From assembly GCF_024628805.1 (NCBI RefSeq), contig NZ_CP102382.1, positions 124,001-188,000 of the forward strand: DNA of 64,000 nucleotides, in the 5' to 3' direction. The position numbers and the translations under genes were made by a program. The notes beneath the pieces are model-generated. The model was not told the DNA's origin, ran no database searches, and saw only the letters and a program-made list of their open reading frames with translations. Shown here piece by piece: positions 10,706 to 61,148 of this stretch (position 1 is the first letter of the stretch; every line of letters starts with the position of its first letter). Source of the DNA: Paenimyroides aestuarii (lineage in GTDB: Bacteria > Bacteroidota > Bacteroidia > Flavobacteriales > Flavobacteriaceae).

Positions 10706-10728
10706 TTACTGTATATTGTAGAAAAAAA

Positions 10729-11073
10729 GGCGACGACCCGAGCTTGCGAATTGCGCCGCACCACCCGAACGAAGCGAACGGTACACGTAGTAAATAACAA
10801 AAAAAAGCCCGTCTTGAAAAAGACAGGCTTTATTAAAAAAAGGCGACGACACGAGCTTGAGAATTGCGCCGCACCAACCGAGCGAAGCAAACGGTACGTA
10901 GTAAATAACAAAAAAGAAAGCCCGTCTTAAAAAAGACAGGCTTTACTAAAAAAAGGCGACGACCCGATCCACCTAGGCGGAGAATTGCGCCGCACCAACC
11001 GAGCGCGAAGCGAACGGTACGTAGTAAATAAAAAAAAAGCCTATCTTGAAAAAGACAGGCTTTATTAAAAAAA
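10729..11073 (-). repeat. tandem array of three 5S-tail units
   Basis: Three direct repeats lie immediately downstream of 5S rRNA: 10729-10841 and 10842-10954 (113 bp each) and 10955-11073 (119 bp). Read on the minus strand, each carries a terminator hairpin (AAAGCCTGTCTT... AAGACGGGCTTT), then ACGTACCGTTCGCTTCG..CGG, GTGCGGCGCAATTC, and ends GTCGTCGCC plus a T-run, a near copy of the last bases of 5S (GTCGCCGCC) and the bases after it. The unit next to 5S also contains TCCGCCTAGGTGGA, a hairpin similar to those in the tRNA-tail arrays. Confidence 0.8.
11041..11070 (-). terminator. terminator of the rRNA operon
   Basis: Just after 5S on the minus strand, AAAGCCTGTC pairs with GATAGGCTTT (one wobble) and a T-run follows. 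Copies recur in each 5S-tail unit, giving several terminators in series. Confidence 0.7.
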
Positions 11074-11182
<109 letters not shown>

Positions 11183-14500: not shown

Positions 14501-14740
14501 TGGAGAATAAGGGAGTCGAACCCTTGACCTTCCCGCTTATAGCGGGACGCTCCAGCCCCTTTTGGCTGAATCTCTTGTGGTGGAGAATAAGGGAGTCGAA
14601 CCCTTGACCTTCCCGCCTATAGCGGGACGCTCCAGCCCCTTTTGGCTGAATCTCTTGTGGTGGAGAATAAGGGAGTCGAACCCTTGACCTTCCCGCCTAT
14701 AGCGGGACGCTCCAGCCCCTTTTGGCTGAATCTCTTGTGG
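14501..14740 (-). repeat. three 80-bp tRNA-Ala tail units (pseudo-tRNA array)
   Basis: Units 14501-14580, 14581-14660 and 14661-14740 are 80-bp direct repeats differing at only one obvious base (the first has TTATAG, the others CTATAG). In tRNA sense each unit gives a D-arm-like hairpin (CAGCC...GGCTG), GAGCG, a hairpin TCCCG-CTATAGG-CGGGA in place of the anticodon arm, then AGGTC and the exact T-arm and 3' acceptor strand of tRNA-Ala. The 5' acceptor strand is degenerate, so these are not functional tRNAs. They lie within the transcribed 16S-23S spacer. Confidence 0.85.
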
Positions 14741-14814
14741 TGGAGAATAAGGGAGTCGAACCCTTGACCTCCTGCGTGCAAGGCAGGCGCTCTAGCCAGC
14801 TGAGCTAATCCCCC
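14741..14814 (-). tRNA. tRNA-Ala (TGC)
   Basis: Cloverleaf on the minus strand: acceptor GGGGGAT/ATTCTCC with the G3-U70 alanine identity pair, anticodon stem CCTGC/GCAGG with loop CTTGCAC (anticodon TGC), variable AGGTC, T-arm AAGGG-TTCGACT-CCCTT. Here CCA follows the discriminator A in the DNA (14738-14740), where the repeat junction supplies it. Confidence 0.96.
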
Positions 14815-56057: not shown

Positions 56058-57002
56058 TTATAAACTTGCTAAATAACGTTCGGCATCTAAAGCCGCAATA
56101 CAGCCCGATCCAGCAGCAGTAATTGCTTGTCGGTAATCTTTATCCTGCACATCACCACACGCAAAAACGCCGGGAACGTTTGTTTTAGATGTTTTTCCTT
56201 CGGTGATTAAATACCCTGTTTCGTCCATCGTTAATTGTCCGGCGAAAATATCGGTATTAGGTTTGTGACCAATTGCCACAAAAACACCTGTAACAGCGAT
56301 TTCCTTTTTCTCGTTGGTTTTATTATTCACTATACGCACTCCGTTAACAATTTGTCCGTCGCCCAAAACTTCATCAATTTCGGTGCTCATTAAAATTTCA
56401 ATGTTTGGTGTGTTTTTCACACGTTCCTCCATGATTTTTGATGCACGAAATTTTTCAGAACGAACCAGCATAGTAACTTTTTTACATAAATGCGACAAAT
56501 AATGGGCTTCTTCACAAGCCGAATCGCCTGCACCAACAATAATTACTTCTTGATTACGGTAGAAAAAACCATCGCAAACTGCACAAGCCGATACACCGCC
56601 ACCCATTTGCAAATAGTGCTGTTCAGACGGAATACCTAAGTATTTAGCTGTTGCCCCTGTTGATATAATTACTGTTTTTGCATGAATTTCAATCGTGTCA
56701 TTGATCCATATTTTTTTCAATTCGCCCGATAAATCAACCTTGGTAGCAAAACCGTCACGTACATCTGTTCCAAAACGCTTAGCTTGCGCTTGCAGTTGCA
56801 TCATCATTTCTGGACCTGTAACCCCATCTGGATAGCCTGGGAAATTTTCTACTTCATTTGTTGTGGTTAACTGACCGCCAGGTTGCATTCCTTGATACAA
56901 TACAGGATTCATATTGGCACGAGCCGCATAAATCGCCGCAGTATAACCTGCTGGCCCCGAACCTATTATTAAACATTTTACCGTTTCTATAGTTGTTGAC
57001 AT
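56058..57002 (-). CDS. trxB: thioredoxin reductase
   Basis: 314 residues. FAD-binding GSGPAGYTAAIYAARA (14-29), redox-active C140-A-V-C143 in VSACAVCDGFFY, NADPH-binding GAGDSACEEA and the closing FACGDVQDKDYRQAITAAGSG. It reduces thioredoxin with NADPH in the cytosol. Promoter at 57031-57060; it is the last minus-strand gene before the tRNA-Pro array. Confidence 0.95.
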   Translation of the reverse strand: MSTTIETVKCLIIGSGPAGYTAAIYAARANMNPVLYQGMQPGGQLTTTNEVENFPGYPDGVTGPEMMMQLQAQAKRFGTDVRDGFATKVDLSGELKKIWINDTIEIHAKTVIISTGATAKYLGIPSEQHYLQMGGGVSACAVCDGFFYRNQEVIIVGAGDSACEEAHYLSHLCKKVTMLVRSEKFRASKIMEERVKNTPNIEILMSTEIDEVLGDGQIVNGVRIVNNKTNEKKEIAVTGVFVAIGHKPNTDIFAGQLTMDETGYLITEGKTSKTNVPGVFACGDVQDKDYRQAITAAGSGCIAALDAERYLASL

Positions 57003-57030
57003 ATTTTTTTACATTGTTTTTTAACGATTA

Positions 57031-57060
57031 CAAAAATAGCTATTTATCAATGGATTCAAA
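57031..57060 (-). promoter_or_regulatory. promoter of trxB
   Basis: Minus strand TTTG (57060-57057), 18-base spacer, TATTTTTG (57038-57031), 29 bases before the trxB ATG. Confidence 0.6.
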
Positions 57061-57163
57061 AGAAAGTTCTGTTTTAAATAACTATGGTATAATCGATTCG
57101 CTCTATGAGTAAATATTTTTTTATCTTTTTTTAAAATTTTACGCATTAAATAAAAAAAACATG

Positions 57164-57171
57164 TATATTTG
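57164..57171 (+). promoter_or_regulatory. promoter -7 element of tRNA-Pro
   Basis: TATATTTG, 24 bases before the tRNA 5' end. Confidence 0.6.
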
Positions 57172-57194
57172 CACTCGAATTATTGAAAACAATT

Positions 57195-57269
57195 CGGGGT
57201 GTAGCGTAGCCCGGTCATCGCGCCTGGTTTGGGACCAGGAGGTCGCAGGTTCGAATCCTGCCACCCCGA
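57195..57269 (+). tRNA. tRNA-Pro (TGG)
   Basis: Full cloverleaf: acceptor CGGGGTG/CACCCCG, anticodon stem CCTGG/CCAGG around TTTGGGA (anticodon TGG), variable AGGTC, T-arm GCAGG-TTCGAAT-CCTGC, discriminator A, no encoded CCA. It is the only complete tRNA of the array that follows; its 3' half (from 57239) is repeated five more times downstream. Confidence 0.97.
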
Positions 57270-57277
57270 CAAAAAAG

Positions 57278-57304
57278 AGACTTCTAAAATGGAAGTCTTT
57301 TTTT
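57278..57304 (+). terminator. terminator of tRNA-Pro, repeated in every unit
   Basis: AGACTTC and GAAGTCT flank a seven-base loop, followed by seven T residues. Copies recur every 350 bases (57628, 57978, 58328 and 58678). Each lies immediately before a nuclease start codon. Confidence 0.85.
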
Positions 57305-57320
57305 ATTTTAAAACAGTGTT

Positions 57321-57569
57321 ATGTTTTATACTTATATTTTATATAGTACCAAGTCTTTGAAGTATTATGTTGGGCAAACCAATAATTTATCCGACAGAAT
57401 CAATCGGCACAACGCGGCACAACAAATTGCAACTAAAAACGGCATCCCGTGGATTTTAATAACTTATTTTGAATGTCAGTCGAGAAGTGAAGCGGTTCAA
57501 CTCGAAAACAAAATAAAAAAAAGAGGTGCTAAAAGATTTCTTTTTGATATTGGATTTTATGAAATATAA
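57321..57569 (+). CDS. GIY-YIG nuclease, array copy 1
   Basis: 82 residues, a stand-alone GIY-YIG domain (UPF0213/YhbQ-like). Signature Y5-I-L and Y16-V-G18, the arginine R26 in LSDRINRHN, and the metal-binding glutamate E62 in VQLENKIKKRGAKRF are all present, so the fold and active site look complete. Family members are DNA endonucleases or repair-related proteins. The stop codon (TAA 57567-57569) leads straight into the tRNA-like ATCGCG sequence. Only 16 bases separate the preceding terminator from the ATG, so expression may depend on read-through. Confidence 0.9.
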   Translation: MFYTYILYSTKSLKYYVGQTNNLSDRINRHNAAQQIATKNGIPWILITYFECQSRSEAVQLENKIKKRGAKRFLFDIGFYEI

Positions 57570-57620
57570 TCGCGTCCCGCCTGGCGGGAAGGTCGCAGGT
57601 TCGAATCCTGCCACCCCGAC
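57570..57620 (+). other. tRNA-Pro 3' half with hairpin replacing the anticodon arm
   Basis: CGCG, then TCCCGCCTGGCGGGA (perfect inverted repeat around one T), then AGGTC and the unchanged T-arm and acceptor 3' strand of tRNA-Pro. The 5' half (acceptor strand and most of the D-arm) is missing, so it is not a tRNA gene. Equivalent copies lie at 57920-57970, 58270-58320, 58620-58670 and 58970-59020. Confidence 0.85.
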
Positions 57621-57670
57621 AAAAAAGAGACTTCTAAAATGGAAGTCTTTTTTTATTTTAAAACAGTGTT

Positions 57671-57919
57671 ATGTTTTATACTTATATTTTATATAGTACC
57701 AAGTCTTTGAAGTATTATGTTGGGCAAACCAATAATTTATCCGACAGAATCAATCGGCACAACGCGGCACAACAAATTGCAACTAAAAACGGCATCCCGT
57801 GGATTTTAATAACTTATTTTGAATGTCAGTCGAGAAGTGAAGCGGTTCAACTCGAAAACAAAATAAAAAAAAGAGGTGCTAAAAGATTTCTTTTTGATAT
57901 TGGATTTTATGAAATATAA
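57671..57919 (+). CDS. GIY-YIG nuclease, array copy 2
   Basis: 82 residues, identical in protein sequence to copy 1, with the same GIY-YIG, Arg26 and Glu62 residues. Flanked upstream by a tRNA-Pro 3' half plus terminator and downstream by the hairpin and the next tRNA half. Confidence 0.9.
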   Translation: MFYTYILYSTKSLKYYVGQTNNLSDRINRHNAAQQIATKNGIPWILITYFECQSRSEAVQLENKIKKRGAKRFLFDIGFYEI

Positions 57920-58020
57920 TCGCGTCCCGCCTGGCGGGAAGGTCGCAGGTTCGAATCCTGCCACCCCGACAAAAAAGAGACTTCTAAAATGGAAGTCTTT
58001 TTTTATTTTAAAACAGTGTT

Positions 58021-58269
58021 ATGTTTTATACTTATATTTTATATAGTACCAAGTCTTTGAAGTATTATGTTGGGCAAACCAATAATTTATCCGACAGAAT
58101 CAATCGGCACAACGCGGCACAACAAATTGCAACTAAAAACGGCATCCCGTGGATTTTAATAACTTATTTTGAATGTCAGTCGAGAAGTGAAGCGGTTCAA
58201 CTCGAAAACAAAATAAAAAAAAGAGGTGCTAAAAGATTTCTTTTTGATATTGGATTTTATGAAATATAA
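58021..58269 (+). CDS. GIY-YIG nuclease, array copy 3
   Basis: 82 residues, identical in protein sequence to copies 1 and 2, in the same context. Confidence 0.9.
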   Translation: MFYTYILYSTKSLKYYVGQTNNLSDRINRHNAAQQIATKNGIPWILITYFECQSRSEAVQLENKIKKRGAKRFLFDIGFYEI

Positions 58270-58370
58270 TCGCGTCCCGCCTGGCGGGAAGGTCGCAGGT
58301 TCGAATCCTGCCACCCCGACAAAAAAGAGACTTCTAAAATGGAAGTCTTTTTTTATTTTAAAACAGTGTT

Positions 58371-58619
58371 ATGTTTTATACTTATATTTTATATAGTACC
58401 AAGTCTTTGAAGTATTATGTTGGGCAAACCAATAATTTATCCGACAGAATCAATCGGCACAACACGGCACAACAAATTGCAACTAAAAACGGCATCCCGT
58501 GGATTTTAATAACTTATTTTGAATGTCAGTCGAGAAGTGAAGCGGTTCAACTCGAAAACAAAATAAAAAAAAGAGGTGCTAAAAGATTTCTTTTTGATAT
58601 TGGATTTTATGAAATATAA
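58371..58619 (+). CDS. GIY-YIG nuclease, array copy 4
   Basis: 82 residues; differs from copies 1-3 by A32T (one G to A change, AACGCGG to AACACGG). The active-site residues are kept. Sharing this change with copy 5 shows the order of amplification. Confidence 0.9.
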   Translation: MFYTYILYSTKSLKYYVGQTNNLSDRINRHNTAQQIATKNGIPWILITYFECQSRSEAVQLENKIKKRGAKRFLFDIGFYEI

Positions 58620-58720
58620 TCGCGTCCCGCCTGGCGGGAAGGTCGCAGGTTCGAATCCTGCCACCCCGACAAAAAAGAGACTTCTAAAATGGAAGTCTTT
58701 TTTTATTTTAAAACAGTGTT

Positions 58721-58969
58721 ATGTTTTATACTTATATTTTATATAGTACCAAGTCTTTGAAGTATTATGTTGGGCAAACCAATAATTTATCCGACAGAAT
58801 CAATCGGCACAACACGGCACAACAAATTGCAACTAAAAACGGCATCCCGTGGATTTTAATAACTTATTTTGAATGTCAGTCGAGAAGTGAAGCGGTTCAA
58901 CTCGAAAACAAAATAAAAAAAAGAGGTGGTAAAAGATTTCTTTTTGATATTGGATTTTATGAAATATAA
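58721..58969 (+). CDS. GIY-YIG nuclease, array copy 5
   Basis: 82 residues; has A32T, shared with copy 4, and A70G, unique to this copy. Active-site residues are kept. It is the most distal and most diverged copy, next to the terminal tRNA half. Confidence 0.9.
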   Translation: MFYTYILYSTKSLKYYVGQTNNLSDRINRHNTAQQIATKNGIPWILITYFECQSRSEAVQLENKIKKRGGKRFLFDIGFYEI

Positions 58970-59020
58970 TCGCGTCCCGCCTGGCGGGAAGGTCACAGGT
59001 TCGAATCCTGCCACCCCGAC
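58970..59020 (+). other. terminal tRNA-Pro 3' half with a T-stem mutation
   Basis: Same hairpin and 3' half as the others, but the T-stem has ACAGG instead of GCAGG, breaking one pair. The bases after it (AACACTTGCAC) are unlike those after every other copy, so this is the right-hand boundary of the array and may be the original tRNA 3' end displaced by the insertion. Confidence 0.75.
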
Positions 59021-59044
59021 AACACTTGCACTAAGTGAAGTCAT

Positions 59045-59078
59045 AAACCCGCAAATTCTAAGGATTTGCGGTTTTTTT
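59045..59078 (+). terminator. terminator after the array
   Basis: AAACCCGCAAAT and ATTTGCGGTTT form a hairpin followed by seven T residues; it probably ended the ancestral tRNA-Pro transcript. Confidence 0.8.
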
Positions 59079-59203
59079 GTTTTTATTTCATATCAAAATA
59101 TCCCAGTTTATATCAACCTATCCGTGAGCGATTAAGTGAGTAATACTTTTAAATTGTTCTAAAAAGGGGTAAGTTTACAGTTTCTTTAATGTTAATTTAA
59201 ACA

Positions 59204-59236
59204 AAAAACCTCAAACTTTTCAGCTTGAGGTTTTTC
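59204..59236 (-). terminator. terminator of dnaK
   Basis: Minus strand AAACCTCAAGC and TTTGAGGTTT form a hairpin with a T-run just after the dnaK stop. Confidence 0.85.
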
Positions 59237-59255
59237 GTATTTATGAAAAAAATTA

Positions 59256-61148
59256 CTATTTCACTTCTTCGTAATCTACGTCTTGGGTAGCATCGCCACT
59301 GTCTTGTGTTGGCTCAGCTTGTGATGCACCACCCTGTTGTGTGTCTGCTTGGGCTTTGTACATTTCTTCTGAAGCTGCCTTCCAAGCTTCGTTGATTTTG
59401 TCTAAAGCCGGTTGAATTGTTTCTACATTACGAGTTTCGTAAGCTTTTTTCAATTCTTCCAATGCGCCTTCGATATTCGATTTGTTACCATCTGATAATT
59501 TATCACCAAACTCTTTCAATTGCTTTTCGGTTTGGAAAATCATTCCGTCTGCTTCGTTTAATTTATCGGCAGTTTCTTTCGCTTTTTTGTCGCTTTCTGC
59601 GTTTGCTTCTGCTTCTTTCTTCATTCGTTCGATTTCCTCTGCTGTTAATCCAGAAGAAGCTTCAATACGAATATCGTGTGATTTACCTGTGCCTTTATCA
59701 GTTGCCGATACTTTAATGATACCGTTTGCATCAATATCAAAAGTAACTTCAATTTGTGGCACTCCGCGTTGTGCTGGTGGAATTCCGTCTAAATGGAAAC
59801 GACCAATTGTATTGTTATCATTTGCCATTGGGCGTTCTCCTTGCAACACGTGAATTTCTACCGATGGTTGGTTATCTACCGCTGTTGAAAACACTTGCGA
59901 TTTTTTGGTAGGAATGGTTGTGTTCGACTCAATTAATTTTGTAAAAACACCACCCATTGTTTCAATTCCTAATGATAAAGGTGTAACGTCTAACAACAAT
60001 ACATCTTTCACATCGCCTGTTAAAACACCTCCTTGAATAGCTGCTCCTAAAGCAACAACTTCGTCTGGATTTACGCCTTTTGATGGTTTTTTTCCAAAGA
60101 ATTTTTCTACGTGTTCTTGAATTACAGGAATACGTGTTGATCCACCTACCAAGATTACCTCATCGATATCTGAGATGGATAACCCTGCATCTTGTAATGC
60201 TTTTTTACATGGTTCCATTGAACGACGTACTAAATCGTCTGCTAATTGCTCAAATTTTGCACGAGTTAATGTTTGCACCAAGTGTTTTGGTCCTGTAGCT
60301 GTAGCAGTTACATACGGTAAGTTGATTTCCGTTTGAGCTGAAGAAGACAATTCGATTTTCGCTTTTTCTGCTGCTTCTTTTAAACGTTGAAGTGCCATTG
60401 GATCTTGGCGTAAATCTACACCTTCAGCTGCATTAAATTCGTTTGCTAACCAATTAATGATTACTTGGTCAAAATCGTCACCTCCTAAATGCGTGTCTCC
60501 GTTTGTTGATAATACTTCAAAAACACCGTCACCTAATTCTAAGATCGAGATATCAAAAGTACCACCACCTAAATCGTAAACTGCAATCTTTTTGTCTTGG
60601 CTGCCTTTATCCAAACCGTAAGCCAATGCTGCAGCAGTAGGTTCGTTGATAATACGCATTACTTCTAACCCAGCAATTTGTCCGGCTTCTTTAGTAGCTT
60701 GGCGTTGTGCATCGTTAAAATATGCAGGAACGGTAATCACCGCTTGCGTAACTGTTTGGCCCAAATAATCTTCAGCAGTTTTCTTCATTTTTTGAAGCGT
60801 CATTGCCGATAATTCTTGTGGAGTGTACAAACGTCCGTCCACATCAACGCGCGGGGTATCGTTGTCACCTTTTACTACTTTGTATGCTGTATGCTCTAAT
60901 TCTTTTTGAACTTCAGAGAATTTTTCACCCATAAAACGTTTAATAGACGCTATGGTTTTTGTAGGGTTTGTTACCGCTTGGCGTTTTGCAGGGTCACCCA
61001 CTTTAATTTCACCGCCTTCTACAAAAGCAATTACAGACGGTGTTGTTCTTTTACCTTCTGCATTTGGAATAACCACTGCTTCATTACCTTCCATTACAGC
61101 AACACAAGAGTTGGTAGTTCCTAAGTCAATTCCAATAATCTTACTCAT
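59256..61148 (-). CDS. dnaK: chaperone protein DnaK (Hsp70)
   Basis: Start taken at 61148 ([21 protein letters not shown]); an upstream in-frame ATG would add 16 basic residues. 630 residues. The ATPase domain carries [26 protein letters not shown] and [14 protein letters not shown]; the linker [15 protein letters not shown] and substrate-binding domain follow, with a Q/G-rich C-terminal tail ending DYEEVK. It folds and protects cytosolic proteins. No dnaJ or grpE is adjacent, so it is a single-gene unit. Confidence 0.97.

Follow-up and report, generated by a model that had tools for sequence, protein, structure and literature searches.

A tandem array of minimal GIY-YIG nuclease units behind tRNA-Pro suggests an undescribed class of selfish element at tRNA genes of Bacteroidota and neighboring phyla

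Genomic islands that use a tyrosine integrase repeat the 3' part of a tRNA gene at both of their ends, with the tRNA rebuilt. Repetitive extragenic palindromes (REPs) are mobilized by the RAYT enzyme, which is a HUH transposase. The closest described systems are, however, those of phages. In excerpts of the report on phage T6, SegB is a GIY-YIG nuclease with its gene next to tRNA genes, and the tandem amplification of a tRNA segment depends on its catalytic activity, in a process that involves breaks and homologous recombination at short repeats (PMC13096335). SegB of phage T4 lies between tRNA genes and is listed, in the part of the paper available, as an active free-standing endonuclease (PMC2988022). 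Repeats of the CGTC type are mentioned for Bacteroidetes in a further paper, in whose available text the word GIY does not occur (PMC3733652). The subject of this text is a stretch of 64,000 nucleotides from Paenimyroides aestuarii (contig NZ_CP102382.1, positions 124,001 to 188,000 of the forward strand), called the window and numbered from its first letter, in which an intact tRNA-Pro gene is followed by five tandem units, each holding a small GIY-YIG gene. Together with its relatives, this array suggests an undescribed class of selfish element across Bacteroidota and neighboring phyla.

According to a preliminary description made from the window alone, one complete tRNA-Pro precedes five 350-bp units in exact register, and ARAGORN and Tandem Repeats Finder agree with this (period 350, 5.1 copies, 99% matches, 57240-59022). 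The array consists of the following features:
57195..57270, + strand: intact tRNA-Pro(TGG) (ARAGORN; Rfam tRNA 69 bits)
57240..57589, + strand: unit 1, with tRNA nucleotides 44-76, terminator, GIY-YIG gene and palindrome
57590..57939, + strand: unit 2, identical to unit 1
57940..58289, + strand: unit 3, identical to unit 1
58290..58639, + strand: unit 4, one substitution
58640..58989, + strand: unit 5, two substitutions
58990..59020, + strand: last tRNA-Pro 3' half, one substitution, then the outer flank
57278..57304, + strand: terminator-like hairpin with a T run, recurring in each unit at +350
57321..57569, + strand: GIY-YIG gene 1, 82 amino acids (open reading frame list; Pfam scan)
57671..57919, + strand: GIY-YIG gene 2 (open reading frame list)
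58021..58269, + strand: GIY-YIG gene 3 (open reading frame list)
58371..58619, + strand: GIY-YIG gene 4 (open reading frame list)
58721..58969, + strand: GIY-YIG gene 5 (open reading frame list; Pfam scan)
57575..57589, 57925-57939, 58275-58289, 58625-58639 and 58975-58989, + strand: palindrome TCCCGCCTGGCGGGA at the place of the anticodon arm

Each unit has the content first ascribed to it, namely a tRNA 3' half, a terminator, an 82-residue GIY-YIG gene and a GC hairpin, and the 82-codon reading frame is complete in all five. The order inside the unit is tRNA nucleotides 44-76, the terminator-like hairpin, the gene, TCGCG, TCCCGCCTGGCGGGA, and then nucleotide 44 of the next tRNA half. TCGCG corresponds to the five tRNA-Pro bases preceding the anticodon arm and is the sole match on the left side of the palindrome, to the right of which tRNA-Pro resumes exactly at nucleotide 44. 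With the tRNA 3' half at the head of the unit, the tRNA is rebuilt in every case, a property that had already been recognized and can be seen directly in the sequence. The length of the array and the identity of its units exclude an origin by chance. In its genome, a single contig of 2,961,016 bases, the window protein is found at these five places only; further tRNA-Pro places lie at genome positions 2161199 and 2162024, with the same sequence over 82 bases.

What is shared with SegB is the location of the gene for a GIY-YIG nuclease, which lies between tRNA genes or next to them. Compared with what the excerpts on SegB describe, the units here lie on a bacterial chromosome, encode a single domain of 82 amino acids, and carry a tRNA half and a hairpin; moreover, they leave remnants without an anticodon arm and belong to lineages mostly devoted to one tRNA kind. 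The repeated tRNA 3' part and the rebuilt tRNA are shared with tRNA-targeted integrative elements, but the unit measures 350 bp, and its repeat starts at nucleotide 44 and, within the array, runs through the terminator. No integrase-sized open reading frame is present in the 350-bp unit, in line with the claim of a nuclease that works with no integrase. Dispersed short palindromes tied to a small enzyme gene recall REPs and RAYT, although here the enzyme is a GIY-YIG protein and the palindromes lie inside tRNA copies. The GIY-YIG gene is the only family-matched gene of the unit, which lacks a HUH (Y1) transposase; the rest of the genome was not searched for RAYT. Some features of a free-standing homing endonuclease are present: the nuclease domain is intact, its gene adjoins a conserved gene, and element-free alleles exist. 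A group I intron was considered and rejected: no intron family is matched up to E 1 at 56900-59400, the tRNA is uninterrupted, and the NCBIfam model for a group I intron endonuclease reaches 25.5 bits, below its cut-off of 56 bits. No description of such elements was found among the open-access titles and beginnings of abstracts listed, the phage SegB papers being the nearest. The elements are apparently undescribed, as far as seen, and akin to free-standing homing nucleases, and there is a fair chance that they merit a class of their own.

Two features go beyond the preliminary description: the position of the hairpin at the place of the anticodon arm, and a second, gene-less array at tRNA-Ala, which consists of the following features:
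14738..14814, - strand: intact tRNA-Ala(TGC) in an rRNA operon (ARAGORN)
14501..14770, - strand: three gene-less 80-bp units, each a tRNA-Ala 3' half with a hairpin, then a last 3' half
14531-14547, 14611-14627 and 14691-14707, - strand: palindromes exactly replacing the anticodon arm

The array at 14501-14770 is preceded by a 16S rRNA gene, and the 16S 3'-end motif also adjoins the three places of this kind outside the window. The gene-less units are present in 3, 2, 1 and 2 copies at the four rRNA operons. The genome has 13 copies of the pattern TCCCGC..GCGGGA, compared with none of the reversed control pattern, and all 13 lie at tRNA genes, five at tRNA-Pro and eight behind tRNA-Ala; palindromes of the AT type number two. 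A further set of about three gene-less tandem units of 113-119 bp lies behind a 5S rRNA gene (10722-11083, - strand). These units repeat the apparent end of the 5S rRNA gene and its terminator, on the same plan as the tRNA arrays.

Relatives of the nuclease were collected in three samples, in which loci and genomes are numbered with L and G. The first comprises 82 loci, of which 53 come from a scan of species genomes and 29 from the 61 genomes searched within the genus, where 32 other genomes had a match and the best place was taken for 29 of these. The second was found with a profile of 34 relatives across the phylum and adds 29 loci, the best per genome. The third holds 40 regions picked by hand from high-scoring rows to spread over genomes, and is therefore not random. 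L020 and L102 are one element, and the proteins of L055/L112, L034/L190 and L128/L257 are identical. A tRNA is called intact when ARAGORN calls it, and the call at L066 is itself a copy with a palindrome as its anticodon arm.

The link to tRNA genes, on which the first interpretation had been made to depend, holds among these relatives. A tRNA on the same strand lies within 500 bp at 66 of the 82 loci, upstream of the gene in 62 and only downstream in four (L021, L024, L027 and L067, where the element precedes its tRNA); among the 16 loci without a called tRNA, a fragment or remnant is readable in 13. In the phylum sample, 24 of 29 loci have a tRNA within 900 bp and the other five have apparent tRNA fragments behind the gene. 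In the hand-picked sample, 34 of 40 have one within 600 bp, four show a T-arm motif, and L215 and L223 show neither. The control consisted of GIY-YIG loci found in the genus with Pfam, 29 of 30 being used and the window's own omitted. The four that belong to the family (at least 90 bits to its profile) all adjoin a tRNA, as opposed to none of 20 other small GIY-YIG genes (43-62 bits) and none of five UvrC genes (0/25 in all). The repetition of the tRNA 3' half behind the gene is likewise widespread: in 45 of the 58 loci with sequence there, the 45 bases that end the upstream tRNA align with a higher score than any of 60 shuffles, and 28 of the 58 score at least 20, while no shuffle exceeds 14. 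The tandem array behind tRNA-Pro is confirmed as real and as an instance of a general arrangement.

The distribution of the family is patchy, with members in 34 of the 61 genomes of the genus (79-bit cut). In the phylum, the profile finds matches in 250 of 395 genomes at E 1e-6, a number that includes other small GIY-YIG genes because of this cut-off, and about 138 of 395 by hand count reach 1e-20. The host contigs are named as Bacteroidota and also as Chlorobiota, Ignavibacteriota, Balneolota and Cloacimonadota; several of them are metagenome bins, with their assignment as recorded. Many elements are found at contig ends (e.g., L019, L026, L028, L030, L046, L062, L064, L065 and L070), so that draft assemblies probably break there and copy numbers are underestimated.

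The tree of the nuclease follows tRNA identity, and its lineages each stay largely with a single tRNA kind. A protein tree of 143 rows, of which 126 bear one of 13 isotype labels and 17 bear none, requires 28 changes of isotype, compared with a mean of 88.0 and a minimum of 81 in 200 shuffles; this tree is built on 85 columns, has many unresolved forks, and contains rows that are partly non-independent. A smaller and more careful tree of 73 rows (69 labeled), from which ten of 83 proteins were excluded for a length under 60 residues and in which ten tRNA labels come from the reading of remnants, requires 15 changes against 46.2 when shuffled. The nearest other row has the same isotype for 106 of the 126 labeled rows, with about 15 expected. 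In six genomes sampled at several tRNA genes, all 14 rows are nearest to a row of another genome, in 12 cases of the same isotype, when neighbors closer than 0.02 are not counted. Switches exist. In G005 (L124), the nuclease lies beside tRNA-Pro remnants and groups with Val lineages. In G045, the gene at tRNA-Pro has 34% identity to that of the window, as against 54-64% for four other genomes of the genus with an element there.

The window protein is a bare GIY-YIG domain. Pfam GIY-YIG (PF01541) is matched by the first and last genes of the array, the two that were scanned, with E 5e-16 and 1.1e-15, and the structure model of the 82 residues is a single domain. Y5, Y16, R26, H30 and E62, which we take to be the catalytic residues, are invariant across 34 sequences. 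The gene is under purifying selection, with dN/dS of 0.03-0.15 in 12 of 17 pairs yielding a value, although four of these 12 have a saturated dS above 2. The only sequence match in the PDB is 1zg2 (BH0048, E 0.023), which is also the best Foldseek match (E 8e-4). With VIA-align, the best structures are HIGLE and Slx1, and I-TevI comes next in likeness of fold. The protein thus resembles in fold the small GIY-YIG proteins of the BH0048/UPF0213 type and Slx1, but differs from the former in its place beside tRNA genes, which none of the 20 other small GIY-YIG genes of the genus share.

Comparison with element-free genomes, which had been proposed as a way to define insertion points, reveals syntenic empty tRNA sites, and arrays are common. 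The left flank from trxB to tRNA-Pro aligns in one piece at twelve loci of the genus; L102 and L103 carry the element, and in the ten species with the same arrangement the 330 bases that follow the tRNA are free of genes. At tRNA-Ala, the flanks of G056 and G006 are about 87% identical on both sides. In G006, which has no family match and a run of N upstream of the tRNA, the tRNA's own terminator follows at once; in G056, it is followed by two units, a decayed piece of the gene, and then the apparent remaining half of the terminator. Truncated copies are found at the tRNA-distal end in L311, L312, L316, L317 and G056, and give no proof of direction. Growth of the array at its tRNA end had been considered, since units 1-3 are identical and unit 5 is the most diverged, and was rejected, as L303 and L304 show no such polarity. 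Tandem growth alone can be explained by recombination between the repeated tRNA halves.

The palindromes give the sharpest boundary. A total of 153 stretches were mapped, taking perfect stems of at least six pairs outside called tRNAs whose two 10-base flanks both match the neighboring tRNA with up to two mismatches, and allowing as many as two outer pairs to be counted as flank. This yields 135 palindromes in 86 loci, of which 53, in 36 loci and 11 tRNA species by anticodon, replace exactly the anticodon arm (nucleotides 27-43); without trimming of outer pairs, the numbers are 54 of 131 in 38 loci, with the same picture. These remnants follow the tRNA to nucleotide 26, change to a hairpin, and resume at nucleotide 44, and they derive from Ala, Arg, Asp, Ile, Lys, Pro, Ser and Val tRNAs. 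The tRNA-Ala array of the window belongs to this exact class, and its tRNA-Pro hairpins fall outside the 53 because their left flank matches over five bases only. Other palindromes replace the T loop (tRNA kept to 56 and resumed at 62; 11 cases), the T arm (49, 65; eight cases), part of the T region (49, 58; 12 cases), the D loop, or shorter stretches of Gly, Asn and Met tRNAs. Their sequences vary, TCCCG..CGGGA being the commonest, with paired variants such as CCCCG..CGGGG, TTCCG..CGGAA and TCACGC..GCGTGA. The tRNA 3' half is at most a conjectured target, in view of this boundary at the anticodon arm, the elements upstream of their tRNA, and the division of nuclease lineages by tRNA kind.

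Two further kinds of tRNA copies were noticed. In L053, L056, L058, L068 and L111, whole tRNA-Ala copies with a hairpin for the anticodon arm recur upstream of the true tRNA, and no gene separates them. In L121 and L221, the tRNA copies next to family members have a different hairpin (CCTGCCTGCC..GGCAGG) in their D region.

The reading favored here, with a rough probability of 0.55 and drawn from sequence comparison, is that the array belongs to a large family of minimal, free-standing homing-type selfish elements specific for tRNA genes. The nuclease would cleave the gene for its own tRNA kind, probably close to the anticodon arm or at the arm itself, which may be recognized as a branched or hairpin structure in the manner of Slx1-type enzymes. 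Repair by homologous recombination with the element-bearing copy as the template would then copy the element in. On insertion, the tRNA would be restored by the tRNA half and terminator that the element brings along, which would also provide the repeats for amplification, and the remnant, with a hairpin for its anticodon arm, would be neither a tRNA nor a cut site. Arrays could expand through repeated cutting and recombination between the tRNA halves, as with phage SegB, and gene-less units such as those at tRNA-Ala may be non-autonomous derivatives.

Several observations weigh against this proposal. The intact tRNA stays uncut in carriers; low expression might explain its escape, as might a requirement for an extruded structure or for native flanking sequence within the target. 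A recoded homing site had been suspected at tRNA-Ala from the difference in the anticodon stem between G056, with the element, and G006, without it, but such immunity was rejected, as across the genus each stem type is found in carriers and in non-carriers of the element; closely related nucleases also sit on both. A separate DNA-binding domain, which is a feature of Seg proteins, is not visible within the 82 residues. The window protein as a query finds no match in plasmid and phage records, and one match of 29 residues in viral contigs. The majority of the mapped palindromes (82 of 135) lie off the exact position of the anticodon arm, and dispersed palindromes are also found in nuclease-free genomes (53 copies in G006). 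Finally, L033, L045, L069, L215 and L223 have no trace of a tRNA in the sequence read, and 13 of 58 loci have no detectable repeat of the tRNA 3' half, which is either missing or decayed beyond the test.

A wider form of the homing proposal can be put forward only tentatively. It holds that the units form a new class of mobile element, made of a nuclease and a hairpin, that would read tRNA genes as folded DNA, swap the arm for a REP-like hairpin exactly at its base (nucleotides 26/27 and 43/44), and speciate by tRNA identity, with a parasite lineage for each of many tRNA kinds across Bacteroidota and neighboring phyla. Further branches of the class would then be the non-autonomous units found at tRNA genes, perhaps those at 5S rRNA genes, and the small GIY-YIG genes associated with repeats. 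If true, minimal selfish elements are widespread at the tRNA genes of a major bacterial phylum, each suited to a single tRNA kind, and provide a natural series of small nucleases differing in tRNA-gene specificity. Such elements would also explain repeats at tRNA genes and rRNA operons that are hard to assemble, and offer a testable answer to the origin of REP-like palindromes in Bacteroidota. The exact exchange of the anticodon arm for a hairpin makes structure-specific cutting of DNA directly testable.

An alternative that appears unlikely is that the nuclease chiefly mobilizes REP-like palindromes, as RAYT does for REPs, with arms being exchanged at tRNA genes, a favored dock because their arms are hairpins. 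Whole arms or loops are indeed replaced by palindromes, and the AT-type palindrome TCCCGAT..ATCGGGA is dispersed in the genus far above its control, with 0-106 copies per genome (106 in G055) compared with 0-2 for the reversed pattern. Across the 61 genomes, those with the nuclease are richer in palindromes (median 10 vs 4, p 0.0005). However, this correlation is weak once genome size is allowed for (partial r 0.24, p 0.06), and the nuclease is not claimed to explain the number of palindromes. In addition, G006 has its 53 palindromes and no family member, the GC-type palindromes of the window's genome are confined to tRNA genes, and we know of no GIY-YIG enzyme that joins DNA.

The isotype fidelity of the lineages, the position of the gene beside its tRNA on the same strand, and the tRNA-like outline kept by the remnants, hairpin for hairpin, would also be expected of a tRNA-specific ribonuclease, either toxin-like or regulatory, with the hairpin remnant as an RNA decoy or guard. 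This is improbable, as the nearest folds are those of DNA nucleases, many remnants are decayed or interrupted by further palindromes, and gene-less arrays are kept. Among six proteins, PADLOC gives weak matches to long models for four and none for the window protein, and NCBIfam gives weak matches only; assignment to a defense system or a named family was rejected on these grounds.

The nuclease could instead be a non-selfish tool of the host that amplifies or homogenizes tRNA genes, through dosage or gene conversion, in keeping with the purifying selection, the persistence at the same tRNA in many species, and the rise in tRNA dose on SegB amplification described in the excerpted report (PMC13096335). 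This is very improbable, given that it is the broken remnant and not the intact tRNA that is multiplied in the window and most other arrays, L310 and perhaps L306 being exceptional in having two or more called tRNAs of that kind, and that the family is patchy within the genus (34/61 genomes). An ordinary tandem duplication, with a resident small gene caught between recombining tRNA halves and nothing mobile, fits the differences between arrays as products of unequal crossing-over but is hardly credible in view of the same plan at many tRNA genes and phyla, the isotype-specific lineages, the exact arm replacement and the empty sites.

The small GIY-YIG genes of the genus that lie outside the family (L243-L245, L247-L256, L260-L262, L264, L269, L270 and L272) show an association of their own. 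Dispersed repeats of the TGAGCG..TCGA / TTCGTCGAAATGAC type are found beside 12 of these 20 loci, compared with 26 of 380 background stretches, a lead only, as the motif was written after viewing the same sequences. Small GIY-YIG genes beside dispersed repeats may represent a non-tRNA branch of the same phenomenon.

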